A stretch of 32,914 nucleotides of DNA from Sphingomonadaceae bacterium (GTDB lineage: Bacteria > Pseudomonadota > Alphaproteobacteria > Sphingomonadales > Sphingomonadaceae), in the NCBI GenBank assembly GCA_009920915.1, contig RFZB01000013.1, positions 1-32,914 of the forward strand, written 5' to 3'. Shown piece by piece: positions 65 through 32,267 of the stretch (within the stretch, counting starts at the first letter, position 1; each line of letters opens with the position of its first letter). The translations under genes were made by a program, and so were the position numbers. The notes under the pieces are model-generated. The model was not told the DNA's origin. It ran no database searches and saw nothing but the letters and a program-made list of their open reading frames with translations.

Positions 65-823
65 CAGTGCTGGTGTCATGCCCAGGACGAGCAGGGGCCT
101 GGCCCCGGCGCGTCCGGCGCATCCAATTTCCGCCAGAATATCGACGCTTTTGTCGATGCCGGTTATCGCGTCATTCTGCCCGATATGATTGGCTATGGCG
201 CGTCATCAAAGCCGGAAGGCATTGATTACACGCTGAGCCTCTTCACTGACACAGTCTATGAGGCGCTGCGCGCACATGGCATTGAACGGGCGTCCCTAGT
301 TGGCAACTCGCTGGGCGGTGGCGTTGCTATTCAGATGACGCTCGATCACCCGGAATTTGCCGAAAAGTTGATCCTGATGGCTCCGGGCTGCGTGGAAGAG
401 CAAGCAAGCTATTTCGCCATGCCCGGCATTGCCAAAATGGTGTCGGGCTTTGGCAGCCCAGATTTTAACATTGAGGAGCAAAAGCGCCTCGTCTCCAATC
501 TGGTCCACCCAGATTTTGCGCCCAAAATCCCCGATCAACTGGTCGCCGAACGCTTTGCCGTTGCCAAGACGCAGCCCAAGGACGTGCTGGCCCGGATGCG
601 GACCCCCAATTTAGGCCCGCGCGTGGGTGAGATCACACAGCCGATTTTCGTGCTGTGGGGCCATAATGATGAATTCTGCCCGGAAAGCGGCGCGCGCTAT
701 TTCCTCGATCAATGCGCCAATGCCCGCACGATGACCTTTGCCCGCACCGGCCATTGGGTGCAGGTGGAACGCGCGGCTGAGTTCAACCAATATTCGATTG
801 CCTTCCTCAATGACCAAGGCTGA
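65..823 (+). CDS. alpha/beta hydrolase, meta-cleavage-product hydrolase-like (HsaD/BphD type); 5' end disrupted or truncated at window edge
   Basis: The 185..823 ORF has the nucleophile-elbow motif VGNSLGGGVAIQM and a C-terminal GHWVQVERAAEFN. The same frame upstream of the first ATG encodes EQGPGPGASGASNFRQNIDAFVDAGYRVILPDMIGYG, which is typical oxyanion-hole sequence, back to a stop at 62-64. No start codon lies between. Next gene overlaps (ATG 810). Confidence 0.75.
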   Translation, partial: QCWCHAQDEQGPGPGASGASNFRQNIDAFVDAGYRVILPDMIGYGASSKPEGIDYTLSLFTDTVYEALRAHGIERASLVGNSLGGGVAIQMTLDHPEFAEKLILMAPGCVEEQASYFAMPGIAKMVSGFGSPDFNIEEQKRLVSNLVHPDFAPKIPDQLVAERFAVAKTQPKDVLARMRTPNLGPRVGEITQPIFVLWGHNDEFCPESGARYFLDQCANARTMTFARTGHWVQVERAAEFNQYSIAFLNDQG

Positions 824-1505
824 GAAATACGGCCAGGAATTATATGAAGCGATGCGGGACCGGCGAACGGTGCCGCCGCTGATGGGCCGTGACCCCAGCC
901 TGACCATTGACGATGCCTATGCCATCAGCCTTGATTTCCTTGCCCGCCGCCGCCGTGATGGTGAAAAAGTAGTGGGCAAGAAAATTGGCGTCACCAGCAA
1001 GGCCGTGCAGGATATGCTGGGCGTGCATCAGCCCGATTTTGGCTTTCTGACCGACTGGATGTTTGTTGAAGGCGATATTGATGTTGATGCCAAAGCCTTA
1101 ATCGCGCCCCGCGCTGAAGCCGAAATTGCCTTCATCCTGAAAGACAATTTGGTTGGCCCCGGCGTGACGGCAGAGCAAGTCATTGCAGCGACAGCGGCCA
1201 TCGCGCCGTGTTTTGAAATTGTTGATAGCCGCATTCAGGATTGGCAGATTGGCATTGTCGATACGGTGTCAGACAATGCGTCCTGCGGCGTCTATGTGCT
1301 GGGTGCGGAACGACTGGACCCCAGAGCGCTCGACCTGCCCAATCCCAATACACTGGGTGCTTATGGCGTCACGCTGGATGCGGGCGATGTCATTCTATCG
1401 GGCTCGCTGGTGCCCCTCGCCCCCGCCGTTAAGGGCGATCGGTTTGACATGATTTTAAGCGATGCATCCGGGCCAATTGGCTCTTGCACCGCCAATTTCG
1501 TTTAA
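810..1505 (+). CDS. 2-keto-4-pentenoate / 2-hydroxypenta-2,4-dienoate hydratase family
   Basis: Translation [24 protein letters not shown]...[23 protein letters not shown]...[12 protein letters not shown]...[11 protein letters not shown] matches the hydratase (MhpD/BphH/TesE) family. ATG at 810 overlaps the hydrolase stop. Confidence 0.88.
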
Positions 1506-1515
1506 AGGAAATCAC

Positions 1516-2448
1516 ATGGCACGGGTAAAGGCCGCCATTATCGGATCGGGCAATATCGGCACCGATTTGATGATGAAGATGATCAAATATCCCCAAAATA
1601 TGGAACTGGCCGCTGTTGTCGGGATCGACGCCAATAGCGAGGGCCTCGCCATGGCGCGCCAACATGGCATTGCCACCACGCATGAAGGGATAGAGGGGCT
1701 GAAAAAGCTGCCCTGCTACCCAGAAATTGGCATCGCCTTTGATGCGACCTCTGCCTATGCGCACAAAGTGCATGATGAGGCTCTGCGCGCCGATGGCATT
1801 CAAGTGGTGGACCTTACCCCGGCTGCCATTGGCCCCTTCACGGTGCCGCCCGTCAATATGCACCAGCATTTGGACCAGCCCAATGTGAACATGGTCACGT
1901 GTGGCGGCCAAGCGACGATCCCAATGGTCGCAGCGGTCGCTCGCGTGTCCAAAGCCGTGCATTACGCCGAAATTGTGGCGTCAGTGTCGTCCCGCTCGGC
2001 AGGACCTGGCACACGCGCCAATATTGATGAATTCACCCGCACCACGGCCCGCGCCATTGAGGTTGTGGGTGGCGCGACCAAGGGCAAGGCCATTATCATC
2101 CTCAACCCGGCTGAACCGCCAATGATCATGCGGGATACTGTCTTCACTCTGTCCGAAGGCGGCGATGAAGACGCCATTCGCCAATCAGTGGCGGAGATGG
2201 TGGCCGAAGTGCAAAAATATGTGCCCGGCTATCGGCTGAAGCAGGACGTACAGTTTGAACGCTTTGGCGATAATAACCGCCTGAAAATCCCCGGCATGGG
2301 CGATTTTACGGGCATTAAATCCATGATCATGCTCGAAGTGGAAGGGGCTGGCGATTATCTGCCGCCTTATTCTGGCAATCTCGACATTATGACCGCAGCA
2401 GCCAAAGCCACGGGAGAACTTCTCGCGGCACGGAGGATGGCAGCATGA
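1516..2448 (+). CDS. acetaldehyde/propanal dehydrogenase (CoA-acylating), BphJ/DmpF/HsaG family
   Basis: [22 protein letters not shown] Rossmann start; [20 protein letters not shown] active-site Cys region; directly followed by the aldolase gene. Confidence 0.92.
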
Positions 2449-3485
2449 GCGGCAAGTTCAACGTCGAAGCTGGCGATAAGCTTTATATTCAAGATGTTAC
2501 GCTGCGCGATGGGATGCACGCCATCCGCCATATGTACGGCCTCGACCATGTCATGGCGATTGCCAAGGCATTGGACGATGCCGGCGTCGACGCCATTGAA
2601 GTGGCACATGGCGATGGCCTGTCAGGCGCAAGCTTTAACTACGGCTTTGGTGCCCATACTGATTGGGAATGGCTGGAGGCCGTGGCCTCGGTGCTGACCA
2701 AATCGGTGCTGACAACGCTCATCCTGCCAGGCGTGGGCACAGTAGAAGAACTGCGCCGCGCCTATGACATTGGCGTCCGCTCGGTCCGCGTCGCCACGCA
2801 CTGCACCGAAGCCGATGTGTCGAAACAGCATATTGGCATCGCGCGTGACCTTGGCATGGATGTGTCTGGCTTTTTGATGATGAGCCATATGATTGAGCCG
2901 GAACATCTGGCCCAACAGGCGCTGTTGATGGAAAGCTATGGCGCGCAGTGCGTTTATGTGACGGACAGCGGCGGGGCGCTCGATATGGATGGCGTCCGCG
3001 CGCGTCTGCAAGCCTATGATCGCGTGCTGAAGCCTGAGACCCAACGGGGCATTCACGCGCACCATAATCTTTCACTGGGGGCCGCCAATTCGATTGTTGC
3101 GGCACAAGAAGGCGCCGTGCGCATTGATGCCAGCTTGGCAGGCATGGGCGCAGGTGCGGGCAATGCGCCGCTGGAAGTCTTTGTCGCAGCGGCCGATCGC
3201 AAAGGCTGGAACCATGGCTGTGACGTCATGATGCTGATGGACGCGGCGGAAGATCTTGTGCGTCCGCTGCAAGACCGGCCCGTGCGTGTCGACCGCGAAA
3301 CCTTGGCGCTGGGCTATGCCGGTGTCTATTCCAGCTTCCTGCGTCATGCGGAAAAAGCGGCTGAGACTTATGGCCTCGACACCCGCCAAATTCTGGTCGA
3401 ACTTGGCCGCCGCAAGATGGTGGGTGGTCAGGAAGATATGATTGTCGACGTTGCATTGGATTTGCTAAAGTCACGCAATGGCTGA
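2445..3485 (+). CDS. 4-hydroxy-2-oxovalerate aldolase, BphI/DmpG/HsaF family
   Basis: [23 protein letters not shown] and [48 protein letters not shown] overlap with the dehydrogenase gene. Confidence 0.93.
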
Positions 3486-6707: not shown

Positions 6708-6741
6708 TTTGCGTAATATATAACTCACCCATCTACGCAAA
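6708..6741. promoter_or_regulatory. candidate operator, inverted repeat TTTGCGTA-N18-TACGCAAA (site A)
   Basis: Perfect 8-bp inverted half-sites read directly from the sequence, located between divergent SDR and SnoaL genes. Same motif as sites B, C, D and E. Confidence 0.75.
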
Positions 6742-9660: not shown

Positions 9661-9694
9661 TTTGCGTATCCAGATTGCCTTTTAACTACGAAAA
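9661..9694. promoter_or_regulatory. candidate operator, imperfect inverted repeat TTTGCGTA-N18-TACGAAAA (site B)
   Basis: Seven of eight half-site positions are symmetric, with the same 18-nt spacing as site A. It lies between the divergent TonB receptor and DUF1254 genes. Confidence 0.68.
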
Positions 9695-11875: not shown

Positions 11876-12685
11876 TCAGAAATAATAGCTCGCGCCATTG
11901 GCGACGAGGACAGAGCCGTTGACAAAGCTCGCGTCATCGCTCGCCAAATAGGCGACAGCCGCGGCAATTTCCGATGGGTTGGCCATACGGCCCAAGGGGA
12001 TGGATGCTTCCATCGACTTGATCCACTCATCCGGAATACCGGCCATCACGGGCGTATTGGTCGGTCCCGGCGCAACGGCATTGACCCGGATTTTGCGCGG
12101 GGCGAGTTCGCGCGCCAATTGCCGCGTCAGGCCGATAATTGCGGCCTTAGACGTCACATAATGGGGCGATCCTTCCCCTGATTGCGCACTGGTGGAGCTG
12201 ATATTGATGATGGACCCGGCGTTGCCATCTTCTGCCAAAACACGCGCAAATTCTCGACAGACGTAAAAGGCGCCGTTGATGTTGACGGCCATAACGCCCG
12301 CCCAACCTTCATCCTCCATATGGATCAGCTGATCGACAATGACGTCAGACGCGCCTTTTTCCGCCAGCTCAGCATTACGCTGGGCCATCGCGCCGTAAAA
12401 TTGCTCTGAGCCATCTTTGGCAGCTTGGCCAATGCCTGCGTTGTTGACGGCAATATCCAGACGCCCAAAGGCCTCTCGCGCGGCGCGCACAGCCGCCCGC
12501 ACAGAGGCGGAGTCTGCCACATTGCAGTGCAGGGCCAAGGCAGCGCCGCTGGCCTTTGCCTCATCCACATTCATGTCGAGGGCAGCAACTTTGGCGCCAT
12601 CGGCCGTCAGCCGCTCTACAATCGCACGGCCAATGCCCCGGCCTGCGCCTGTGACAATCGCGGCTTTGCCTACAAATTTGCTCAT
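11876..12685 (-). CDS. short-chain dehydrogenase/reductase (SDR)
   Basis: KAAIVTGAGRGIGRAIVERL, NNAGIG, HYVTSKAA, NGSVLVANGASYYF. Confidence 0.88.
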   Translation of the reverse strand: MSKFVGKAAIVTGAGRGIGRAIVERLTADGAKVAALDMNVDEAKASGAALALHCNVADSASVRAAVRAAREAFGRLDIAVNNAGIGQAAKDGSEQFYGAMAQRNAELAEKGASDVIVDQLIHMEDEGWAGVMAVNINGAFYVCREFARVLAEDGNAGSIINISSTSAQSGEGSPHYVTSKAAIIGLTRQLARELAPRKIRVNAVAPGPTNTPVMAGIPDEWIKSMEASIPLGRMANPSEIAAAVAYLASDDASFVNGSVLVANGASYYF

Positions 12686-14376
12686 TCCTCATTCGCTCCT
12701 GTCATGTGGCGCGCCGCGATATAGCCAAAGGTCATGGCCGGGCCGATTGTGACGCCCGCCCCCGGATAGCTTTCACCCATGGCCGAGGCCGCGTTGTTGC
12801 CAACAGCATAAAGGCCAGAAATCGGCTTACCCTTTGTATCGAGCACGCGCGCCAGGTCATCCGTCAACAAGCCGCCATTGGTGCCAATATCACCGGGATA
12901 GATGGGCATCGCGTAGAACGGCCCTTTTTCCAGCGGACGCAGGCACGGGTTGGGGCCAACGCGCGGATCGCCATACATTCTGTCATAAGCTGCTTCCCCA
13001 CGATGAAAATCGGGGTCTTCGCCTTTTACGGCAAAATCATTGTAGCGCGCGACAGTCGCTGCCAGCTTATCAGCAGGCACGCCCATCGCTTCGGCCAGTT
13101 CTTCCACCGTGCGGCCTTTTTTCAAAATGCCGCGCACTTCGCCGCGCTGAAGCCAATCCGGCATGATCGGGTAAAGCGGCCCGACAGGATAGCTGTGGCG
13201 ATAGCGGTGATCAAAAACGAACCATGTCGGGCTGGCATCGCCATGTTCGGCCTCACGCCGCGCCATTTGCTGGCCGACAATATGGTAAGACGCAGCCTCG
13301 TTCAGATAGCGTTCGCCCTTTTGGTTGACCATCATGCAGCCCGGCAAGGCGCGTTCAATGGTGCAGAGCCGCCCGCGATCTTCCCCCGGCACGTAAAAGA
13401 CAGGGGCCGCCCATGCCGATTGCATATTAAGCACCTGTGCCCCGACACCCAGCCCGGCGCGAATTGAATCGCCCGTATTGCCGCTTGTCCCGCCAGACAA
13501 CTGGGCCCGACGATACAGCGGGGCGTGCGCGTCCCGCATCTCTTGGTTTTTATCAAAGCCGCCAGCAGCCAGCACAACGCCTTTCCGGGCGCGGACACGC
13601 AATGACTTGCCTTCGTGACGGACCACCGCGCCCACAACCTTGCCCTTTTCAGTGATCAGTTCTTCCATGGGCGTATCAAGCCATAGCGGCACGCCCTTTT
13701 CATTCAGCGCCAGCCGCAATCCGCCCAGCAAGGCATTGCCCAGCGTCAAGCGCCGATCCTTGCGCGATTTAAAGCGGAAGGGCCAATCAAACCAATAGCG
13801 CGCCAAGCTTTTGGTCAGATGCCACCACCAACGCGGCGCACGGAAGAGGAGAATATAGGTTTCATCAAAATGCCAGTTGAGATAGCCAAAGAGGCTCGCC
13901 GCAGGCGAGGCAAAGCGCAGAGTTTCGACATCCTTGCCCAGCTTTTTCCCATCAATAGGCAGCGGCATATGCGTGCGATAGCCGGTGGGGCTGCCCCCCG
14001 GATTTTCGGCATGATAATCAGGATAGGGAAAGGCCTGATAATCAATGTCGGTATTCGCCGTCACCCAACGCAGCATCTTTGCGGCATTGTCGACAAAGGC
14101 GCGGATGTTGGCATCGGGCACATTTTTGGCAGACAACTTGCGGACATATTTAAAGGCATCCGACGTCTTGTCTTCAAAGCCCGCCGCCTTGGCCTGATCG
14201 CTTGCCGGGATCCAAATCCCCGCGCCTGATGTGGCGGAGGTGCCGCCCCACAGCTTTTCCTTTTCGATCACCAGCACATCAGCATGATTGCTGGCCGCGA
14301 CCAAGGCGGAGAGCAAACCGCCCGCGCCCGAGCCGACCACCAATGTATCGACTTCTTTATCCCATGTTTTCGTCAT
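12682..14376 (-). CDS. kstD: 3-ketosteroid delta1-dehydrogenase-like FAD flavoprotein
   Basis: VDTLVVGSGAGGLLSALVAASNHADVLVIEKEKLWGGTSATSGAGIWIPAS plus C-terminal IYPGDIGTNGGLLTDDLARVLDTKGKPISGLYAVGNNAASAMGESYPGAGVTIGPAMTFGYIAARHM, the KstD-type signature. The symbol is by family resemblance; substrate is unverified. Confidence 0.75.
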   Translation of the reverse strand: MTKTWDKEVDTLVVGSGAGGLLSALVAASNHADVLVIEKEKLWGGTSATSGAGIWIPASDQAKAAGFEDKTSDAFKYVRKLSAKNVPDANIRAFVDNAAKMLRWVTANTDIDYQAFPYPDYHAENPGGSPTGYRTHMPLPIDGKKLGKDVETLRFASPAASLFGYLNWHFDETYILLFRAPRWWWHLTKSLARYWFDWPFRFKSRKDRRLTLGNALLGGLRLALNEKGVPLWLDTPMEELITEKGKVVGAVVRHEGKSLRVRARKGVVLAAGGFDKNQEMRDAHAPLYRRAQLSGGTSGNTGDSIRAGLGVGAQVLNMQSAWAAPVFYVPGEDRGRLCTIERALPGCMMVNQKGERYLNEAASYHIVGQQMARREAEHGDASPTWFVFDHRYRHSYPVGPLYPIMPDWLQRGEVRGILKKGRTVEELAEAMGVPADKLAATVARYNDFAVKGEDPDFHRGEAAYDRMYGDPRVGPNPCLRPLEKGPFYAMPIYPGDIGTNGGLLTDDLARVLDTKGKPISGLYAVGNNAASAMGESYPGAGVTIGPAMTFGYIAARHMTGANEE

Positions 14377-16012: not shown

Positions 16013-16046
16013 GATGCGTAGAATCACGCCAATAAAATTACGAATG
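16013..16046. promoter_or_regulatory. weak candidate operator, GATGCGTA-N18-TACGAATG (site E)
   Basis: Core GCGTA-N18-TACG with the same spacing as sites A, B and D, between divergent SDR genes; outer half-site positions are degenerate. Confidence 0.45.
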
Positions 16047-17550: not shown

Positions 17551-19251
17551 ATGACCGACCAAAAGACTGTGCGCATTGGCGGGGGCGCTGCCTTTTTTAT
17601 TGATAGCGCCATGGCCGTGCCGCAGCTTTTGGGCGCTGGGGTGGATTATATCCTGCTCGATTATCTGGCGGAAGGCGCGATGGGCCTTCTCGGCCGCGCG
17701 CGGATGGCTGATCCCAAAGCCGGTTTCCCAAGTGATTTTATGGATGTGCATATTGGGCCATTTCTGGCGCAGATTGCGCAGACAGGCACCAAGATTATGG
17801 CCAATGCCGGGGGCGTGAACCCCGAAGAACTGGCCACGCAACTACGCGGGCGCATTGCGGAATTGGGACTGAATTTGAACGTCGCCTGCATTTCGGGCGA
17901 TGATCTGATGGGCCAGCTGGCGGACTTTGCGGATGTGAAGGACATGTTCACAGGCGCCCCCTTCCCCACATCGGGCGTCACCAGCTGCAACGCCTATTTG
18001 GGCGCCTTCCCCATTGCCAAAGCACTGGCGCAAGGGGCGGATATTGTCATTACCGGCCGCGTGGTCGATTCCGCGCTCGCGCTCGGCCCGTTGATCCATG
18101 AATTTGGCTGGGGTGCCGAAGATTGGGACCAATTGGCAGGCGGCACAATTGCCGGCCATCTGATCGAATGTGGCCCGCAAGCGACGGGCGGCACGTTTAC
18201 GGACTGGCGCGAGGTCGAAGGCTGGGAAAATATTGGCGCGCCCATTGTGATCTGCGCGGCCGACGGCAGCTGCATTGTGACCAAGCCGGACGGCACGGGC
18301 GGCCTTGTCTCACGGGGCACGGTGGCCGAACAACTGCTGTATGAAGTCAGCGATCCGCAGGCCTATTTCGTGCCCGACGTCACTTGCGACATGGCTCATG
18401 TGACCATTGAAGACCTTGGGGCAGATCGCGTCCGCGTGTCAGGCGCCAAAGGCTATCCGCCGCCTGCGACACTGAAAGCCTGTGTGACTTGGGATGCGGG
18501 GTGGCGTGCCATAGCCTATCAGCCCGTTATTGGCCCGGCCGCCAAAGAGCGGGCCGCCAAACAGGCGGCGGCGCTGTTTGCGCGCGGATCGCTGATGCTG
18601 CGCGGCCGAAATATGGCCGATTGGCAACGGACCGAGGCCGTCATCCTTGGCAGCGAAGAGGAAGTGATCCTCAAACTTGTGGTGGAACACACCGATATGC
18701 TGGCGACACAAATGTTTGTGCGCGAACAATTTGCCGCCATTTCGGCAATGTCCCCCGGCACCAGCGTGGCTTTTGGCCCCAATGTCGCGCCCATGATGCG
18801 CCTGATTGGCTTCACGGTAGACCGCGCTCGCGCCATCCCCCTGTTGGATGGCACGCCCTGCCCCGATCCCGCCCGGCCCAGCTTTGCGCCAGAGATGATT
18901 ACACGGGCCCCTGCCCCGGCTGGCGCAGCGACATCCACCACGCAAACCACATTGGAAAATCTGGCCTTTGCCCGCAGTGGTGAAAAGGGGGAGACAATTA
19001 ACGTTGGCATTATCGCCCGTCAGCCCCAGCACCTTGCCGCCTTGCGCCGTGCGCTGACGCAGGAGGCCTTGCGCAAGTGGCTGCCCGACTTAGGCGATTT
19101 CCGCGTGACTGTTTATGATCTGCCGGGGCCAGCCGCGCTGAACATCGTGATGGACGGGGCATTGCCCGGCGGGCTCAACGCCAGCCAGCGTTTTGACCCC
19201 GCCGCCAAGACAATCGCGCAACGGCTGATGCGGTTTCCCATCACGCTTTAA
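17551..19251 (+). CDS. acyclic terpene utilization AtuA family (DUF1446) protein
   Basis: VRIGGGAAFFIDSAMAVPQLLGAGVDYILLDYLAEGAMGLLGRARMADPKAGFPSDF...KIMANAGGVNPEELATQLR...ADIVITGRVVDSALALGPLIHEFGW is characteristic of DUF1446/AtuA. Confidence 0.85.
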   Translation: MTDQKTVRIGGGAAFFIDSAMAVPQLLGAGVDYILLDYLAEGAMGLLGRARMADPKAGFPSDFMDVHIGPFLAQIAQTGTKIMANAGGVNPEELATQLRGRIAELGLNLNVACISGDDLMGQLADFADVKDMFTGAPFPTSGVTSCNAYLGAFPIAKALAQGADIVITGRVVDSALALGPLIHEFGWGAEDWDQLAGGTIAGHLIECGPQATGGTFTDWREVEGWENIGAPIVICAADGSCIVTKPDGTGGLVSRGTVAEQLLYEVSDPQAYFVPDVTCDMAHVTIEDLGADRVRVSGAKGYPPPATLKACVTWDAGWRAIAYQPVIGPAAKERAAKQAAALFARGSLMLRGRNMADWQRTEAVILGSEEEVILKLVVEHTDMLATQMFVREQFAAISAMSPGTSVAFGPNVAPMMRLIGFTVDRARAIPLLDGTPCPDPARPSFAPEMITRAPAPAGAATSTTQTTLENLAFARSGEKGETINVGIIARQPQHLAALRRALTQEALRKWLPDLGDFRVTVYDLPGPAALNIVMDGALPGGLNASQRFDPAAKTIAQRLMRFPITL

Positions 19252-20075
19252 AGGCTGGTGCGCTGGCCGCCCCAGAATTCGCCTTCTTTCTGCGTGTCCA
19301 AGTCCACAGCGCCGCGCACGCCCAGCTTCGCGCGCGCTTCTTCCAGCGGCACGTGCCAGACATCTTCCATCTTCGCCATCCAGAATGGGTCGGACTGGCG
19401 GCCAATGCGAATGCCCTGTTCAATGCAGGATAAGGCGGTTTCCCAAACCTGCGGGTAATGGAGCATCGTGCGGATCACGTAACGCATCGTCCCGAAAATC
19501 GAGAGGACACTCATCTCGCCCGCCAGTTCCTTATTCTGAATATGCGTGTGGATCGTCGCCAAGCGGAACCAATAGGGGATCAGTTCGCCCATATAGTTAA
19601 AGCCGCCGCCGGTCAGGATGTGCTCATAATCATGCGTCTGGCCTGAGCGGAGCGAATAAAATTGCCATTGCGTCTTCGGCTTATAATCGGGGACGATCTG
19701 GATGTCGTAATTCCCCTCGCTGGCGATCTTGTAGTAAATGCCGCCGACAGTGCCAGGCGCGCAATCCTTCAAGTCCTCCAGCGTGTAGTCTGACACCCAC
19801 CAGTCCGAAAACCATTTGTCGAACGCAGGATTCACCTTGCGCTCCTCGGTAATCATATGTTCGATATGATCAAAATCGCGCAGCTCATCAATGAAGCTCA
19901 ACAATTGGTACATTTCAGCGGCAGGCGGAAAATCCGGCCCATTTTTCTTAAGCGCGATAAAGGCAATCCATTCCCGCAGGCGCGGGTGGTTGAGATATTT
20001 GGACGACGACACCAGCACGCTTGAATCAGTACCAAGCAGCTTTACCCCGCGCGCCAGATAGGGAATATCGTCCAT
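19248..20075 (-). CDS. Coq4-like family protein
   Basis: Contains HDYEH-ILTGGGFNYMG-E, which matches the Coq4 metal-binding signature HDxxH-x11-E; flanking RSGQTHDYEH and ELIPYWFRLATIHTH. Start set at MDDIPYLARG rather than the ORF-track 20195 start. Confidence 0.7.
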   Translation of the reverse strand: MDDIPYLARGVKLLGTDSSVLVSSSKYLNHPRLREWIAFIALKKNGPDFPPAAEMYQLLSFIDELRDFDHIEHMITEERKVNPAFDKWFSDWWVSDYTLEDLKDCAPGTVGGIYYKIASEGNYDIQIVPDYKPKTQWQFYSLRSGQTHDYEHILTGGGFNYMGELIPYWFRLATIHTHIQNKELAGEMSVLSIFGTMRYVIRTMLHYPQVWETALSCIEQGIRIGRQSDPFWMAKMEDVWHVPLEEARAKLGVRGAVDLDTQKEGEFWGGQRTSL

Positions 20076-20091
20076 GAGTCTCTCTCCTTTA

Positions 20092-25235: not shown

Positions 25236-25255
25236 AATTGAGAAGGAGACGCATC

Positions 25256-26365
25256 ATGTCTGATGCTGAAAGCAAAGCTGCTAGCGATGCCCGCACGGCA
25301 CCTGTGGCCGTCTGGCAAATCCTTGAAAAGCTTAAAGGGCAGGATTTGATCGACTGGCGTTTGGCCAATGTGGAAAATCGCGCCTCGATTGAAGAGCGCA
25401 ATTTGAACATTGGCATTCCCTTTGGCTGGTATCCGCTGGTGATGGCGAAGGATCTGGCCGTCGGCGAAGTGAAGCCGCTGCGCTATTTTTCCAAAGACCT
25501 CGCGATGTGGCGCGGCGAAGATGGCGAAGTCCGCATGGTCGATGCCTATTGCAAGCATCTGGGCGCGCATATGGGCCATGGCGGCAAAGTGCATGGCAAT
25601 TTGCTGGAATGCCCGTTCCACGCGTGGCGCTATGACGGCAATGAAGGCGTGGTAAAGGACATTCCCTATGCGCGCGTCATCCCGCCGCAGGTAAAGCGCA
25701 AATGCACCCGCACATGGCACATTACCGAAGCCAATCGCTGGATTTGGGCGTGGTATCACCCCGAAGACGTTGCCCCCTTGTGGGAAGTGGCGCGCCTGCC
25801 CGAATGTTCTGACCCCGACTGGACAGATTTTGAAGTCCATGAATGGAATGTCTGGGGCTCGATCCAGAACATGGCCGAAAATGGCGTCGATGTGGCGCAC
25901 TTCAAATATATTCACGGCACGGCCAATGTTCCCTTGGGTGAATTGCGCTGGGGCGAATGGGGCCGTGGCGCTGATGTCAATGCCAAGATGGGCACGCCCT
26001 GGGGCGAAGTCGATGGCTGCATCAGCTATGACACCATGGGCCCGGGCCAAAGCTGGACGCGCTTTACCGGCATTTCGGAAACACTGCTTGTTGCGTGCCT
26101 TGCGCCAGTTGAGCTGGACCATGTTCATGCGCGTTTCTGCTTCACCCAGCCCAAGGCGCAAGCCGAAGGGGAACGTGCAGGCGTTGCCAAGGCCATTATC
26201 CGCGACATCTGCAAGCAGTTTGATCAGGATAAGGTGGTGTGGGATCGGCAGAAATATGAAGCCAACCCCATTATTTGCGATGGCGATGGCCCTATTCCGC
26301 AATTCCGCAAATTCTATTCACGCTATTACGTAACACCCGAAAAAGACGCGCATAAAGCGGCGTAA
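25256..26365 (+). CDS. Rieske non-heme iron oxygenase, KshA/DAF-36-like
   Basis: Rieske motif YCKHLGAHMGHGGKVHGNLLECPFHAWRYDG (CxH...CxxH) and mononuclear iron motif NMAENGVDVAHFKYIHGTA (D..H....H). Confidence 0.88.
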   Translation: MSDAESKAASDARTAPVAVWQILEKLKGQDLIDWRLANVENRASIEERNLNIGIPFGWYPLVMAKDLAVGEVKPLRYFSKDLAMWRGEDGEVRMVDAYCKHLGAHMGHGGKVHGNLLECPFHAWRYDGNEGVVKDIPYARVIPPQVKRKCTRTWHITEANRWIWAWYHPEDVAPLWEVARLPECSDPDWTDFEVHEWNVWGSIQNMAENGVDVAHFKYIHGTANVPLGELRWGEWGRGADVNAKMGTPWGEVDGCISYDTMGPGQSWTRFTGISETLLVACLAPVELDHVHARFCFTQPKAQAEGERAGVAKAIIRDICKQFDQDKVVWDRQKYEANPIICDGDGPIPQFRKFYSRYYVTPEKDAHKAA

Positions 26366-26413: not shown

Positions 26414-26439
26414 TTAAGACTGTGGGAGAGAGACCGGAC

Positions 26440-27925
26440 ATGATGGATCGTCGTCAATTATTGGCAACGGGGGCCGCGCTGGCCGTGGCAGCACCTGTCC
26501 GGGCGAAGGGGAAAGCGATGAAGAGCAGCATTCTCGATGGCCATGATGCGATGGGCTTGGCCGATCTGGTCAAAACCCGCCAAGTCGCCCCCACCGAATT
26601 GCTTGAGGCTGCGATTGCGCGTGCCGAGGCGCTGAACCCGCGTTTTAACTTCATGGCACAAAAACACTATGATTATGCCCGCGCCGCTATTGCCAAGGGC
26701 CTGCCACAAGGGCCGTTTACAGGCGTGCCGTGGCTGTTGAAGGACCTGAACACCTATATCGCGGGTGAACTGACCGAAGGCGGCAGCCGCTTTTACAAAG
26801 GCTATCGTGCCGCAGTGACGTCTGAACTGGTCCGCCGCTATGAAAAGGCAGGGCTTGTTATCTTCGGAAAGACCACAACGCCCGAATTTGGTTTGACAGG
26901 CACAACTGAAAATAAGCTGACGGGCGATACGCATAACCCGTGGAACCCGGATCATATTGCCGGCGGGTCGTCTGGTGGGGCGGCGGCGGCTGTTGCGGCC
27001 GGTGTCATTCCAGCTGCCCATGCAACGGATGGCGGCGGCTCTATTCGTATCCCAGCGGCCTGTTGTGGGCTTTTTGGCATGAAACCCAGCCGTGGGCGCA
27101 TCCCGATGGGGCCAGTGCGGACCGAAGGCTGGGGTGGCCTCTCCTGCCACCATGCCGTGACGCACAGCGTGCGCGACAGTGCCGCCTTGATGGATGCCAC
27201 ACATGGCCTGGAACTCGGCGCGCGTTATGCAGCGCCAGAACCGGAAGGGGGCAGCTTCTTGGTGAATGTTGGCCGTGACCCCGGCAAGCTGCGCATTGCG
27301 CTGATGATTGCGCCCTTTGCCGGCTCACCCGTCGATCCTGAGGTGGCAGCGGCGACTGAGGCTGCGGCCAAATTATGCGAAGGCCTGGGCCATCATGTTG
27401 AGGTTGCGGCCCCCAAAATTGATGTTGCCGCCACTGGCCAAGCCTCGTTCGTCCTCATTGCCTCTGCAATTGCTGCCGATATTGAAGATCGGGCAAAGCT
27501 GCTGGGCATTACGCCAGGCCCCGATGTGCTGGAGCCAATTACGCTGGGTTTCCATGGCTATGGCAAGACGCTGTGCGTTGCAGGCGGCGGCTGTCACCAT
27601 GGCACAATTCATGGCGCATTATGACGTCATCCTCTCCCCCACGCTGGCCGCACCGCCGCTCAAACTGGGGCAGATCAACCTCACACCGGGCGTTGATTTA
27701 CCAACTTGGGGCGCACGCGCGGCGACCTTCTCCCCCTATACACAAATTGCGAATATGACGGGCCAGCCCTCAATGTCGCTGCCCCTTGCCATGTCAAAGG
27801 CGGGGCTGCCCATCGGGATTATGTTTACGGGCCGATATGGAGAAGAAGCGCTTCTCTATCGCCTCGCCGGGCAACTTGAAGCGGCAGCCCCTTGGGCTGC
27901 ACGCAAGCCGAAAATCAGCGGATAA
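26440..27925 (+). pseudogene. amidase (amidase-signature family) with Tat-like signal, interrupted by a frameshift near 27560-27580
   Basis: Frame 1 encodes MMDRRQLLATGAALAVAAPVRA, VPWLLKDL, HIAGGSSGGAAAAVAAG and DGGGSIRIPAACCGLFGMKPSRGRIP up to ITLGFHGYGKTL. Homologous sequence resumes in frame 2 as ALQAAAVTMAQFMAHYDVILSPTLAAPPLKLG...TGQPSMSLPLAMSKAGLPIGIMFTGRYGEEALLYRLAGQLE. Confidence 0.82.
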
Positions 27926-27947: not shown

Positions 27948-28250
27948 ATGAATGATATTCTGGACCAACTGGCACCCATTGCCGGTCTATTTGGTTTGCT
28001 GGGCTTTGCCGGGCTTGCTGGGTTAAAGCAGCCTATTGATAAAGGCCGGGCGGGCCTTGGCATCCGCCTGATAAGCTTGTTGGGGCTATTGGGGTTGGCT
28101 GGCATTTGGATTCCGGGGGCAGGTGCTATGGGCGCCGCAGGGGCCCTTGGCCTATGGAACCACCAAAACCCAAAGCTGGCGCGCTGGGGTAAGCTCGGCT
28201 GGACCTTCCTTTTGGGTGTGCCCTATTTGGTGCGGGCGCTGGTAGATTAA
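27948..28250 (+). CDS. small hydrophobic (membrane) protein of unknown function
   Basis: MNDILDQLAPIAGLFGLLGFAGLAGLKQPIDKG...LISLLGLLGLAGIWIPGAGAMGAAGALGLW; RBS-like gggggg upstream. Confidence 0.55.
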   Translation: MNDILDQLAPIAGLFGLLGFAGLAGLKQPIDKGRAGLGIRLISLLGLLGLAGIWIPGAGAMGAAGALGLWNHQNPKLARWGKLGWTFLLGVPYLVRALVD

Positions 28251-29125
28251 GACGCGACCCGCCGGATCGTCCGAAAGCCAATATGGTTGGTGCCCAAATC
28301 ATCTTCCATGCGCTGGCGAGATTGCGGGCGATACCGCGCACAGAAATTGACAGCGCACAGGAATGAACCGCCCTTCACCGCGCGCGCGCCTGCATCGCTT
28401 TTCGCTGCGGGGTCATGATTGGGCGTCCAAACGCTTTTCGTCCATTCCCACACATTGCCCGTCATATCATAGAGGCCGTTGGAATTAGCGGGAAAGCTGG
28501 CGACAGGCGCCCGCATCATAAAGCCATCAGCAGCCACATTATGGGTGGGGAATTGCCCGTCCCATGTATTGCTGCTGGGCTTGCCATTGCGCACAGGGCG
28601 GGCGCGGCCCGGCATATCCCGCCCTTGGCCAGCCGCCCATTCCCATTCGGCCTCGGTCGGCAAATCGCGTCCTTTCCAGCGGGCATAGGCCAGTGCATCG
28701 GCATAGGCGATTTGCACTACGGGCTCGTCCTCGCGTCCCTCTATGCTGCTGCCCGGTCCTTCAGGCTGGCGCCAATTGGCCCCTGCCATAAAGGTCCAGC
28801 CCGGCGTTTGCCCCGGCCCCGGCATCACAAACACGGCGCTCCCCGGCATTTGCTGTGCCGCGGGGACGCGCGGGTCACCCAGAAATCCCTTTTCTGCGAC
28901 TGTTCTATAACCGGTGGCTGCGACGAATTCTGCGAATTGCCGATTGGTCACTTCGGTTGCGTCCATGTAGAAGCTGCCGACGCTCACCGGCGGGCCCCGC
29001 CGTTCTTCGGGGTAGCTTCTATCATTGCCCAGCGTCAGCGTGCCGCCTTTAATCAAAACCTCTTTCTCTTGCGGGCCAGAACAGCTCGCAAGCAGCAGGA
29101 CAGCAAGGCACAGCGCGCGACGCAT
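28247..29125 (-). CDS. formylglycine-generating enzyme (SUMF1/FGE-sulfatase) family lipoprotein
   Basis: GRDLPTEAEWEWAA, NGLYDMTGNVWEWT and GGSFLCAVNFCARYRPQSRQ, with the paired Cys of FGE; lipobox MRRALCLAVLLLASCSG. Start overlaps the arylsulfatase stop (TAATG). Confidence 0.88.
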   Translation of the reverse strand: MRRALCLAVLLLASCSGPQEKEVLIKGGTLTLGNDRSYPEERRGPPVSVGSFYMDATEVTNRQFAEFVAATGYRTVAEKGFLGDPRVPAAQQMPGSAVFVMPGPGQTPGWTFMAGANWRQPEGPGSSIEGREDEPVVQIAYADALAYARWKGRDLPTEAEWEWAAGQGRDMPGRARPVRNGKPSSNTWDGQFPTHNVAADGFMMRAPVASFPANSNGLYDMTGNVWEWTKSVWTPNHDPAAKSDAGARAVKGGSFLCAVNFCARYRPQSRQRMEDDLGTNHIGFRTIRRVAS

Positions 29126-30750
29126 TACCGGTAGCGGATCTTCACCTTTGGCGGATATTTGGCCATTGTGGCGCCATGCAGCGCAACCAGTGGGCCAAGT
29201 GCGTATGACGGCGCCCAAGCCTTCTCAATCAATATGGATTTCCGCTCTTTGGGGTCGAGATAGAGATTATACATATAGCTGTTGAGCGGGGTCAGCACCT
29301 GCGCATTATCTAGCCCGCCAAAATCACGGACATTGCCCGAGCCAACCTGCACTTCGGACGTCGACATTTTATAATAGCGCCACCGCACGCCCGAAAACAG
29401 GTCAAGATTCCAGAAATAGACGGCTTCGCGCGCAGATTCACCATTATCCGCCAGCAGCAAGCCTGTTTGATCAATCCCATCAATATACCGGTCTGTTGGC
29501 ACTGCCTTGGTGGCATCAATTCCGGCAAGAGTCAGGCTGGTGTTGAACATATCGGTCATATCAAACAGCCCGTCTGACACACGCCCCGGCTTAATCATCC
29601 CCGGCCACCAGAACAGGCCCGGCACGCGTACCCCGCCTTCCAACGTGGTGCCCTTGGCCCCACGGAATGGGGTGACGCCGGTCTCTGGATAGGAATCTTC
29701 TTCTGGCCCATTGTCAGAGGTAAAGAAGACCAACGTATTGTCCGCTATCTTCAGCTCTTCGAGCAGCTTGGTCAGGCGGCCAACAATATCGTCCACCTCA
29801 ACCACGGAATCCCGATAGACATCTTTGGTGGCTGACCGGCCGACAAAGGCCTTTGACGGCTCATTAAAATAATGAACCTTTGAGAAATTATGGCTGAGGT
29901 AGAAGGGCTTGCCCGATTTGGCCGCCCGCCGAATGAAATCTTCTGAGAAAGACGCGAACTTCTGGTCGAGATCGCGGCTATTTTCCCAGTTGATCTGTTC
30001 AACAGGCTTGGCCCCTTTTTCCTTGGAGGCGCGCCAGACATTGCGATCCCCCGGCATAGAGCGCAGCTCTGCCAATAGCTTTGGATCATTGGCGACATCC
30101 GTCGCATTGGGATGTTCTTCTTGATAGGCGTTTACAACGCCCAGAAAGCCATAAAATTCATCAAACCCAACTTGCCAAGGCCGCGAGCCATCCTTCTCGC
30201 CCAAATGCCATTTGCCTGACATGCCCGTGCGATAGCCGGATTGGGAGAGGAGTTTGGAGGCCAGAATTTCACCCGAAATATCCGCTGTATCATTCAGCAG
30301 CTTGGGCGTGATCAGGCCAGAGCGCACCGGCAGTCGGCCCGTGTTCAACGCGGCACGCGTTGGGGTGCAGCTCGGCTGGGCATAGGTCGAGGTGAGCTTC
30401 AGCCCTTCGCGGGCCAGCCGGTCAATATGCGGTGTTGGTGCCCCAAGGGATTCGCCGCCGCCATAGGCACCGACATCCCCATAGCCCAGATCATCGACCA
30501 CGAAGATAAGGATATTGGGGCGCTTACCCGTTTTCTTGAACAGCGCCTCCAGCTTGGCTTGGGCCGCGCGCTGTTGGGCCGGAAGCATAAGGGCGGGCTC
30601 AAAATTTTCTTTCGTGCGCTCTGCCTTTAAAACCGGCGACACGCGCGACATTGACCCCAATGTTAAGCCCGCGGGCACCGACATTTGCTGCGCCACAGCT
30701 GCCGCTGCAACGCTCGCAGTTAGCCCAACACCCATAAGGACCCGCTTCAT
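29125..30750 (-). CDS. arylsulfatase (type I, formylglycine-dependent), exported
   Basis: MKRVLMGVGLTASVAAAAVAQQ signal peptide; RPNILIFVVDDLGYGDVGAYGG; sulfatase signature SCTPTRAALNTGRLPVRSGL (CxPxR-x4-TG); GKWHLGE; FFTSDNGPEEDS. Confidence 0.93.
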   Translation of the reverse strand: MKRVLMGVGLTASVAAAAVAQQMSVPAGLTLGSMSRVSPVLKAERTKENFEPALMLPAQQRAAQAKLEALFKKTGKRPNILIFVVDDLGYGDVGAYGGGESLGAPTPHIDRLAREGLKLTSTYAQPSCTPTRAALNTGRLPVRSGLITPKLLNDTADISGEILASKLLSQSGYRTGMSGKWHLGEKDGSRPWQVGFDEFYGFLGVVNAYQEEHPNATDVANDPKLLAELRSMPGDRNVWRASKEKGAKPVEQINWENSRDLDQKFASFSEDFIRRAAKSGKPFYLSHNFSKVHYFNEPSKAFVGRSATKDVYRDSVVEVDDIVGRLTKLLEELKIADNTLVFFTSDNGPEEDSYPETGVTPFRGAKGTTLEGGVRVPGLFWWPGMIKPGRVSDGLFDMTDMFNTSLTLAGIDATKAVPTDRYIDGIDQTGLLLADNGESAREAVYFWNLDLFSGVRWRYYKMSTSEVQVGSGNVRDFGGLDNAQVLTPLNSYMYNLYLDPKERKSILIEKAWAPSYALGPLVALHGATMAKYPPKVKIRYR

Positions 30751-30797
30751 GACCTCTCTCCTGCGCACTTAATTGTTCGTTTGATTATGTTTCGCTG

Positions 30798-30831
30798 ATT
30801 GCGTAGCTTTTTTCAAATGATTCTACGCAAA
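30798..30831. promoter_or_regulatory. candidate operator, ATTGCGTA-N18-TACGCAAA (site D)
   Basis: Inverted half-sites with a single outer mismatch and exact 18-nt spacing, between the divergent arylsulfatase and alkylsulfatase-like genes. Confidence 0.73.
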
Positions 30832-30848
30832 TATTGATGGGAGTGGCT

Positions 30849-32267
30849 ATGCGCTGGACCGCGCTTTTATTTTCATTGGTTTCAGCCCCTCTCCTCGCGG
30901 CGGGCTTTCCTCTTTCGACAGACGATGTTCTTGTTCAGCAAGGCCGCCAGTTACTTGCGCGTGAACATCCAGATGTGATGCGCCATATGGGCCGCAATGA
31001 TGGGTTTGGCGGCGCCAGCTCTGCCCAAATCGCGCGGGCCATGCTGTCCGACGCCCCTGCGCTCATTGCCGAGGCCCGCAGCAAGATGGTGATTGAGCCG
31101 CAAGGGCCGGGGATGTGGCTGATCCGCTTTCCTTATGTAAATGTCGCCGTCATCGAAACGCGCGATAGCCTTGTTCTGTTTGATAGCGGCTATGCGTCGA
31201 TTGGCCATGTCCTCAAAGATGTGCTGCCGACGCTCAGCAAAAAGCCTCTGAAAACCATCATCCTATCGCACACGCATGTTGACCATAGCTATGGCGCGCG
31301 CGCGCTGGTGCAGCAAACGCCGCGCCCGACTGTCATTGCCAGTGCGGAAATGCTGGACGCTATTGAGACGGACCTGCGCTTGGGCGGGTCGATTGGCCGC
31401 TACAATAATCAGCCGCTTGCCCTGCAACCGACTGACAAATCGCACGTCGTTGTGCCCGATGTCACTTTTAAAGGCCGCAAGACCTTTCGAATTGGCGGGG
31501 AGGATTTTGTCCTGATCCACGCCCCCGGTGAGACGGAAGACCAGATTTGGATGTGGATTCCCGGCCGTAAAACAATTGTGACGGCAGATTATGTCCAAGG
31601 CTTTTTGCCCAATGCGGGCAATGGCAAGCGGATGCAGCGTTATGTGGAAGATTGGAGCGCCGCGATGCGCGAAATGGCGGCGTTAAAGCCAGAACGGATG
31701 CTGCCCATGCATGGCGCCGCTGTGTCTGGCACGCCGCAGATCACGCAGATGCTGACCACCTATTCCGACGCGCTGGACCATATTGTTGACCAGACCATTG
31801 CACGCTTAAACGCAGGGGATCGCAAAGATGCCATTGCAGCGTCAATTGATTGGCCCGAACAATTCGCCAAAAACCCGCTGCTCGACCCACAATATAATCG
31901 GCCCGAAGATATTGCCCGCATGGTCATGAAGCGCTGGACCGGCTGGTGGGATGATGTGCCCTCGCATTTTGCAGCCATGCCTTTTGAGGCCGAAGCGCGC
32001 GAAGCCGTGGCGTTGGCGGGGGGTGTAGAGGCCATTGACGCGCGCGCGCGGGCTCTGCTGCCAGTCAACAGTAAATTGGCTGCCCGGTTGGCAGATTGGG
32101 CCTATTTTGCAGCACCCGACAACCCAAAGGCACTGCGCCTTGCCATTGATGTCTATCTGGCCCGACTGTCCGAGCCCGATATGCCCGTGCAAGAAGGGCT
32201 GATCTATTTCGACATGGCAGCACGCGCACGCGCGCGACTGGAAAAGCTGACGCCCCCCAAGTCCTAA
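30849..32267 (+). CDS. metallo-beta-lactamase-fold hydrolase, alkylsulfatase (SdsA/type III sulfatase)-like, exported
   Basis: Signal peptide MRWTALLFSLVSAPLLAAG; metal motif ILSHTHVDHSYGA (HxHxDH); central/C-terminal region KRWTGWWDDVPSHFAAMP...AVALAGGVEAI...LAARLADWAYFAAPDNPKALRLAIDVY, like the alkylsulfatase dimerisation domain. Confidence 0.78.
   Translation: MRWTALLFSLVSAPLLAAGFPLSTDDVLVQQGRQLLAREHPDVMRHMGRNDGFGGASSAQIARAMLSDAPALIAEARSKMVIEPQGPGMWLIRFPYVNVAVIETRDSLVLFDSGYASIGHVLKDVLPTLSKKPLKTIILSHTHVDHSYGARALVQQTPRPTVIASAEMLDAIETDLRLGGSIGRYNNQPLALQPTDKSHVVVPDVTFKGRKTFRIGGEDFVLIHAPGETEDQIWMWIPGRKTIVTADYVQGFLPNAGNGKRMQRYVEDWSAAMREMAALKPERMLPMHGAAVSGTPQITQMLTTYSDALDHIVDQTIARLNAGDRKDAIAASIDWPEQFAKNPLLDPQYNRPEDIARMVMKRWTGWWDDVPSHFAAMPFEAEAREAVALAGGVEAIDARARALLPVNSKLAARLADWAYFAAPDNPKALRLAIDVYLARLSEPDMPVQEGLIYFDMAARARARLEKLTPPKS

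Follow-up and report, generated by a model that had tools for sequence, protein, structure and literature searches.

Sulfation is common among excreted steroids and fish bile alcohols, and to our knowledge the removal of this sulfate by environmental steroid degraders has been little studied. In Caenibius tardaugens, the arylsulfatase EGO55_09215 was reported in 2026 to be induced by cholate, a role in bile-acid desulfation being suggested by the authors, and the next locus tag, EGO55_09220, corresponds to an induced TonB receptor (PMC12882949). The sphingomonad pathway of bile-salt (9,10-seco) degradation has been described in Sphingobium sp. Chol11, and the Chol11 papers searched mention no sulfatase (PMC8399759, PMC12175502). 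Neighbouring sulfatase and FGE genes are as such known and frequent.

Here we describe a stretch of 32,914 nucleotides from a freshwater Sphingomonadaceae bacterium (the window), in which a sulfatase gene and an FGE gene are placed divergently to a gene encoding a metallo-beta-lactamase (MBL)-fold protein (Table 1). The cluster resembles the large induced clusters of Chol11 in its pathway, its Rieske oxygenases and its NTF2-type (BaiE-like) and EthD-type dehydratases. Compared by description only, C. tardaugens is likewise a sphingomonad steroid degrader, with a sulfatase gene induced together with bile-salt catabolism; in contrast to the present locus, neither an FGE nor an MBL protein nor a common operator was described there (PMC12882949). 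The earlier note on this DNA had regarded the link between sulfatases and steroid-type catabolism as novel, which was partly anticipated, as the general idea of a sulfatase in steroid catabolism is not new after the 2026 report. What is new here is the architecture of an operator-defined regulon that includes sulfatase and FGE, and the evidence for the MBL protein as a core, separate element next to an accessory one.

Table 1. Positions of the genes and operator sites in the window, with the basis of each assignment.
Feature	Position	Strand	Basis or remarks
Meta-cleavage tail, HsaD/E/G/F-like (alpha/beta hydrolase, hydratase, acetaldehyde dehydrogenase, aldolase)	185-3485	+	
Operator A	6709-6740		Between SDR and BaiE-like SnoaL protein genes
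Operator B	9662-9693		Between TonB receptor and DUF1254 protein genes
3-Ketosteroid-delta-1-dehydrogenase-like (KstD)	12682-14376	-	NCBIfam 4e-159, below curated cut-off
Operator C	16014-16045		Between two divergent SDR genes
KshA-like Rieske oxygenase (steroid 9-alpha-hydroxylase family)	25250-26365	+	Pfam KshA_C 9e-26; KshA 4qdf 1e-40
FGE, predicted outer-membrane lipoprotein	28247-29125	-	292 aa; Pfam FGE-sulfatase PF03781 2.5e-62
Cys-type (type I) sulfatase, predicted exported	29125-30750	-	541 aa, ATG start; Pfam Sulfatase 2e-47
Operator D	30799-30830		Perfect inverted repeat TTGCGTAG-N16-CTACGCAA, between divergent sulfatase and MBL genes
MBL-fold protein, predicted exported	30849-32267	+	472 aa; Lactamase_B (PF00753) 3e-17, Alkyl_sulf_dimr (PF14863) 4e-17

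The sulfatase, the FGE and the MBL-fold protein

Protein families, active-site residues, operator sites, regulon membership and conservation were computed. The likely starts of all three genes are ATG codons and not the TTG or GTG codons of the mechanically defined reading frames. In the sulfatase, the CTPTR signature is found at Cys128 and the S-site residues of the type I class are all kept (D86, D87, C128, H293, D346, N347 and K366), and with signature, metal and sulfate-site residues in place its sequence assigns it to the type I (formylglycine) class. The stop codon of the sulfatase gene overlaps the start of the FGE gene in a TAATG junction (29127-29123), and the pair of a type I sulfatase and an FGE-like protein proposed in the earlier note was thus confirmed, including the Pfam matches of both. 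That all three proteins appear exported or lipidated also held: judged by eye, the N-termini of the sulfatase (Sec-like) and of the MBL protein are signal-like, and the FGE carries the lipobox LAS-C15-S. This sulfatase gene is the only classical type I sulfatase gene of the genome, the remaining PF00884 matches being membrane proteins of other kinds. On contig C296 of G000, a sulfatase-like match resembles a membrane protein of LTA-synthase type from a different phylum and is perhaps an assembly contamination.

The closest solved structure to the sulfatase is PsFucS1, a fucoidan sulfatase of family S1_13 (PDB 7AJ0, 5e-127), which has the catalytic and calcium residues as well as a signal peptide in common with it. 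A docking model placed R131, R435, H491 and E495 of PsFucS1 around the sulfated fucose of the +1 site (PMC8484680). All four differ in the aligned sulfatase (T148, L449, I508 and A511, respectively), which speaks against a polyanionic sugar as substrate and either leaves a hydrophobic aglycone open or favours it, and the carbohydrate context of PsFucS1 contrasts with the steroid regulon found here. Kinship with a fucoidan sulfatase would nevertheless be expected if sulfatase and FGE served sulfur scavenging or the use of sugar sulfates and lay in the steroid cluster by chance insertion, and the occurrence of similar sulfatase-FGE pairs in other contexts (Roseobacter, Caballeronia) and of a TonB receptor gene that accompanies sulfatase and FGE in several relatives points in the same direction. 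We consider this explanation unlikely, as it conflicts not only with the replaced fucoidan-site residues but also with an operator that the module has in common with the steroid genes and that is present even where the module lies apart (G299, see below), and with a near orthologue of the sulfatase in another genus (L064) that adjoins AtuA and acyl-CoA ligase homologues. A sulfur-scavenging role was also looked for in the neighbouring genes and was not supported, no sulfur-assimilation or carbohydrate gene being recognised among these genes of the window.

The best PDB match of the FGE is human FGE (1y1e, 9e-56), and its catalytic pair C257-x4-C262 lies within KGGSFLCAVNFC, aligned to human KGGSYMCHRSYC. 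With an FGE domain and both active-site cysteines (C-x4-C), the protein has by its sequence the features that define its class. It shares the whole domain and the cysteine pair with known FGEs (human 1y1e, bacterial 2q17) and differs from them in being a predicted exported lipoprotein. Human FGE is located in the ER, where formylglycine is made in eukaryotes. As the FGE gene at 28247-29125 was the only match in a piecewise search of the genome and its product is predicted to be exported, formylglycine formation would here take place in the periplasm, in parallel to the ER of eukaryotes.

No description of an exported bacterial FGE was found in the literature searched. That such a form is unique to this locus was rejected, since 19 of 26 FGEs sampled at the level of the order carry a lipobox-like motif, a count made with a simple pattern that can also match by chance; several of these lipobox-like FGEs adjoin sulfatase-like genes, and signal-less forms also occur among the sampled sphingomonad FGEs (L078-L082). 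Side by side with signal-less forms, FGEs with the cysteine pair and a lipoprotein-type N-terminus seem to be common in Sphingomonadales (L071-L077, L084, L118-L143). The locus thus marks an exported lipoprotein form of FGE that is apparently common in this order.

Type III alkylsulfatases cleave the C-O bond with inversion, and combine an MBL fold with a dimerisation domain. The divergent protein has both domains and the motif HTHVDH, in agreement with the HxHxDH protein of MBL fold described in the earlier note. Its AlphaFold model (pLDDT 84) retrieved SdsA1, Pisa1, SdsAP or YjcS as all 13 best PDB fold matches in Foldseek, and its metal ligands H141, H143, D145, H146, E228, D247 and H288 are invariant across 20 relatives. 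In characterised alkylsulfatases the His196 site is acidic, with Glu in SdsA1 and SdsAP and Asp in Pisa1, and the Cys221 site is occupied by Glu; a Glu next to the zinc ions has been described for alkylsulfatases only (PMC5426288). Of this Glu/Glu metal site the protein has the first residue, E228, which takes the place of the PGHT histidine just as in SdsA1 and SdsAP, and lacks the second, D247 standing where all three characterised enzymes have Glu; each state is invariant in the 20 relatives. It further shares a predicted export signal with SdsA1, SdsAP and Pisa1 and differs from them in its low identity (about 18-20%) and in ending after the dimerisation domain without a Pfam match to SCP2, at 472 aa as compared with 633-668 aa for the solved alkylsulfatases. 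The protein may work like a type III enzyme, though we do not class it as a type III sulfatase, and of the two mechanistically different sulfatases claimed in the earlier note only the type I enzyme was supported.

Plasmid and literature searches revealed no characterised homologue of this short MBL family, an alkylsulfatase-like class of proteins to which the locus draws attention. MBL relatives with 39-44% identity, and with identical metal ligands in those aligned, were present in Acidimicrobiales and Microthrix MAGs (L105, L107-L112). None of the few neighbouring genes checked there could be recognised as a steroid gene, and these relatives thus give no hint of a substrate.

The steroid cluster and its operator

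The window, together with contigs C302 and C315, holds homologues of KshA, KstD, HsaA/HsaC and IpdAB, i.e. a steroid 9,10-seco cluster, and the three pieces form one stretch in relatives. C302 and C315 carry the rest of the cluster (HsaA-like, HsaC, IpdAB and acyl-CoA dehydrogenases), a second KshA-like oxygenase and two AsnC-type regulators; these contents were read from translations except for IpdA (PDB match 6co6, 1e-82) and HsaC (2zi8, 1e-55), with HsaA and IpdB assigned by reading and position only. In the meta-cleavage tail of the window, the hydrolase was assigned by Pfam and the acetaldehyde dehydrogenase by a match above the curated cut-off, and hydratase and aldolase were named from translations only. 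The SnoaL9 protein next to site A had the bile acid 7-alpha-dehydratase BaiE as its sole PDB match (9e-12). From the IpdA, HsaC and KshA matches and this BaiE-only match, a steroid is likely to be the substrate class of the pathway, perhaps a 7-hydroxylated bile-type steroid. The KshA, HsaC, IpdA and BaiE homologues bear out the steroid-type ring degradation that the earlier note had suggested.

An amidase gene beside the Rieske gene (26422-27925) is split over two frames that cover profile positions 1-285 and 357-444; it is whole in several relatives and missing in some, and the split reflects a frameshift or an assembly error. Relatives also keep the AtuA-family (17551-19251) and Coq4-like (19248-20078) proteins in their steroid cluster, and we know of no steroid-degradation role for either.

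Site D lies 18 bp before the start codon of the MBL gene and 48 bp before that of the sulfatase gene, and was kept at the same place in relatives. The operator consensus is TTGCGTA-N18-TACGCAA. A search with a looser form (WTKCGTA-N18-TACGMAW) gave four matches in the window, all of them lying between genes of divergent orientation, where 0.78 were expected from shuffled sequences, none of which reached four. In the whole genome (2.44 Mb) there are seven sites, four in the window, one on C302 and two on C315, all of them inside the steroid cluster, as compared with none for a reversed control pattern. The operator proposed to be shared by the divergent genes was thus supported. Chakrabartia godavariana, whose strain PRB40 (RKSN01000002) carries the complete module, has five operator sites at 132-185 kb on one contig, and the operator is absent from a genome of the same genus (G129) that also lacks IpdA, the MBL gene and the sulfatase. 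In the relative G299, where the sulfatase-FGE pair and the MBL gene lie on different contigs, the sulfatase has an operator with one mismatch 53 bp upstream, and a search ahead of the MBL gene gave none, an arrangement indicating that the operator goes with the sulfatase.

Distribution of the MBL gene and the sulfatase module

Close orthologues of the MBL protein (57% or more) were present in 10 of 301 genomes of the family, belonging to five genera, and all ten have IpdA. In four of these five genera and in a Sphingorhabdus contaminans record, no sulfatase or FGE lies beside the MBL gene, and in such module-free clusters (G298, G271, G137, G257 and Sphingorhabdus) it mostly lies behind Rieske and amidase or P450 genes. 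Orthologues of the sulfatase (73% or more) were found in seven of the 301 genomes, six of this genus (Chakrabartia) and one of another; IpdA occurs in all seven and in 41 of the 301 overall, although the seven are not independent, six being of one genus. Within the genus, 9 of 13 genomes have both MBL and sulfatase and the other four have neither. Outside it, G120 has an isolated sulfatase orthologue with neither an FGE next to it nor an operator close to the consensus, and its best FGE match has no signal sequence. At least two relatives have no FGE beside the sulfatase, two of which encode a lipoprotein FGE elsewhere that may serve the enzyme from a distance.

That sulfatase and MBL protein evolved as a pair was rejected, as other genera have the MBL gene in a Rieske/amidase operon without the module; as it persists in such clusters, its presence is not explained by a partnership with the type I enzyme. 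The most economical interpretation is that sulfatase and FGE, joined in several relatives by a TonB receptor, came to lie next to the core MBL gene through insertion, so that the 'two sulfatases' are, to judge from the gene arrangements, rather a core gene with one accessory sulfatase module inserted at its side in divergent orientation.

The MBL protein may still be a sulfatase that shares the work, with the type I enzyme cutting S-O and the MBL protein C-O bonds with inversion, so that a polysulfated steroid, for instance, would be attacked at two positions. The fold matches, the Glu at position 228 that marks SdsA1 and SdsAP, the common operator and the perfect co-occurrence within the genus argue for such a division of labour, which we regard as possible but somewhat doubtful in view of Asp247, the lack of SCP2, the low identity to characterised enzymes and the module-free clusters. 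Alternatively, it is an exported esterase, lactonase or amide-bond hydrolase of the core steroid pathway, and only the type I enzyme desulfates. This fits its core position in several genera, the only partial alkylsulfatase metal site, the plasmid-borne relative (35%) in Terrarubrum that adjoins an amidase gene and the search for characterised members of the short family, which returned none; with the nearest folds all alkylsulfatases, and a Glu by the zinc ions described for these enzymes alone (PMC5426288), we put its chances close to, but short of, even.

Proposed role in steroid desulfation

Taken together, sulfatase and FGE probably constitute an accessory desulfation module of a steroid 9,10-seco regulon, which desulfates a sulfated steroid in the periplasm to feed the pathway. 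We infer its location, maturation, substrate, order of steps and repression as follows. The FGE lipoprotein would turn Cys128 of the Sec-exported sulfatase into formylglycine in the periplasm, and the sulfatase would then strip the sulfate from a bile-salt, bile-alcohol or sterol sulfate. The freed steroid would be imported and degraded by the KstD, KshA, HsaA-D and IpdAB of the cluster, the whole set being controlled by one regulator, probably a repressor, at the TTGCGTA-N18-TACGCAA sites. The MBL protein would belong to the core of the cluster as an exported hydrolase whose fold resembles that of alkylsulfatases, and might act on another ester or sulfate group of the same substrates.

This explanation is favoured by the type I S-site residues, by the cysteine pair and lipobox of the FGE and by the presence of a single FGE and a single sulfatase; by an operator that is confined to the steroid cluster, missing in G129 and present at the separate pair of G299; and by the IpdA, HsaC, KshA and BaiE matches, the co-occurrence of sulfatase and IpdA, the replaced fucoidan residues and the precedent of C. 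tardaugens. Against it, the characterised enzymes closest to the sulfatase have carbohydrate substrates, the adjacent FGE is missing in at least two relatives, sulfur scavenging would require the same enzyme, and with the module in one genus plus the isolated orthologue of G120, few independent events link it to the pathway. The question is directly testable in this small genome, which has one sulfatase and one FGE, both tied by the operator to a full steroid pathway.

Fish bile-alcohol sulfates are plausible candidate substrates, e.g. 5-alpha-cyprinol sulfate, which occurs in fresh water (PMC6559785). It is a long shot that aquatic sphingomonads recognise and desulfate these compounds through a new, short type III alkylsulfatase without SCP2 and a type I sulfatase that owes its maturation to a lipoprotein FGE, under one steroid regulon, and so clear the signal by which Daphnia sense fish.

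At sites A, C and D the closest start codon is 13-18 bp away, a spacing that would fit a repressor. Two adjacent AsnC/Lrp-type regulator genes (contig C315; L011:8879-9846) are candidate regulators, and the pair is conserved in several relatives next to the second KshA-like gene and an operator. At the HsaA site (C302:1249-1280 in G000; also in G052, G187, G230 and G267), the 18-bp spacer of the operator, ATGACAAAAAAAAT, is strongly conserved, unlike at the other sites, and may hold a promoter or a second site.
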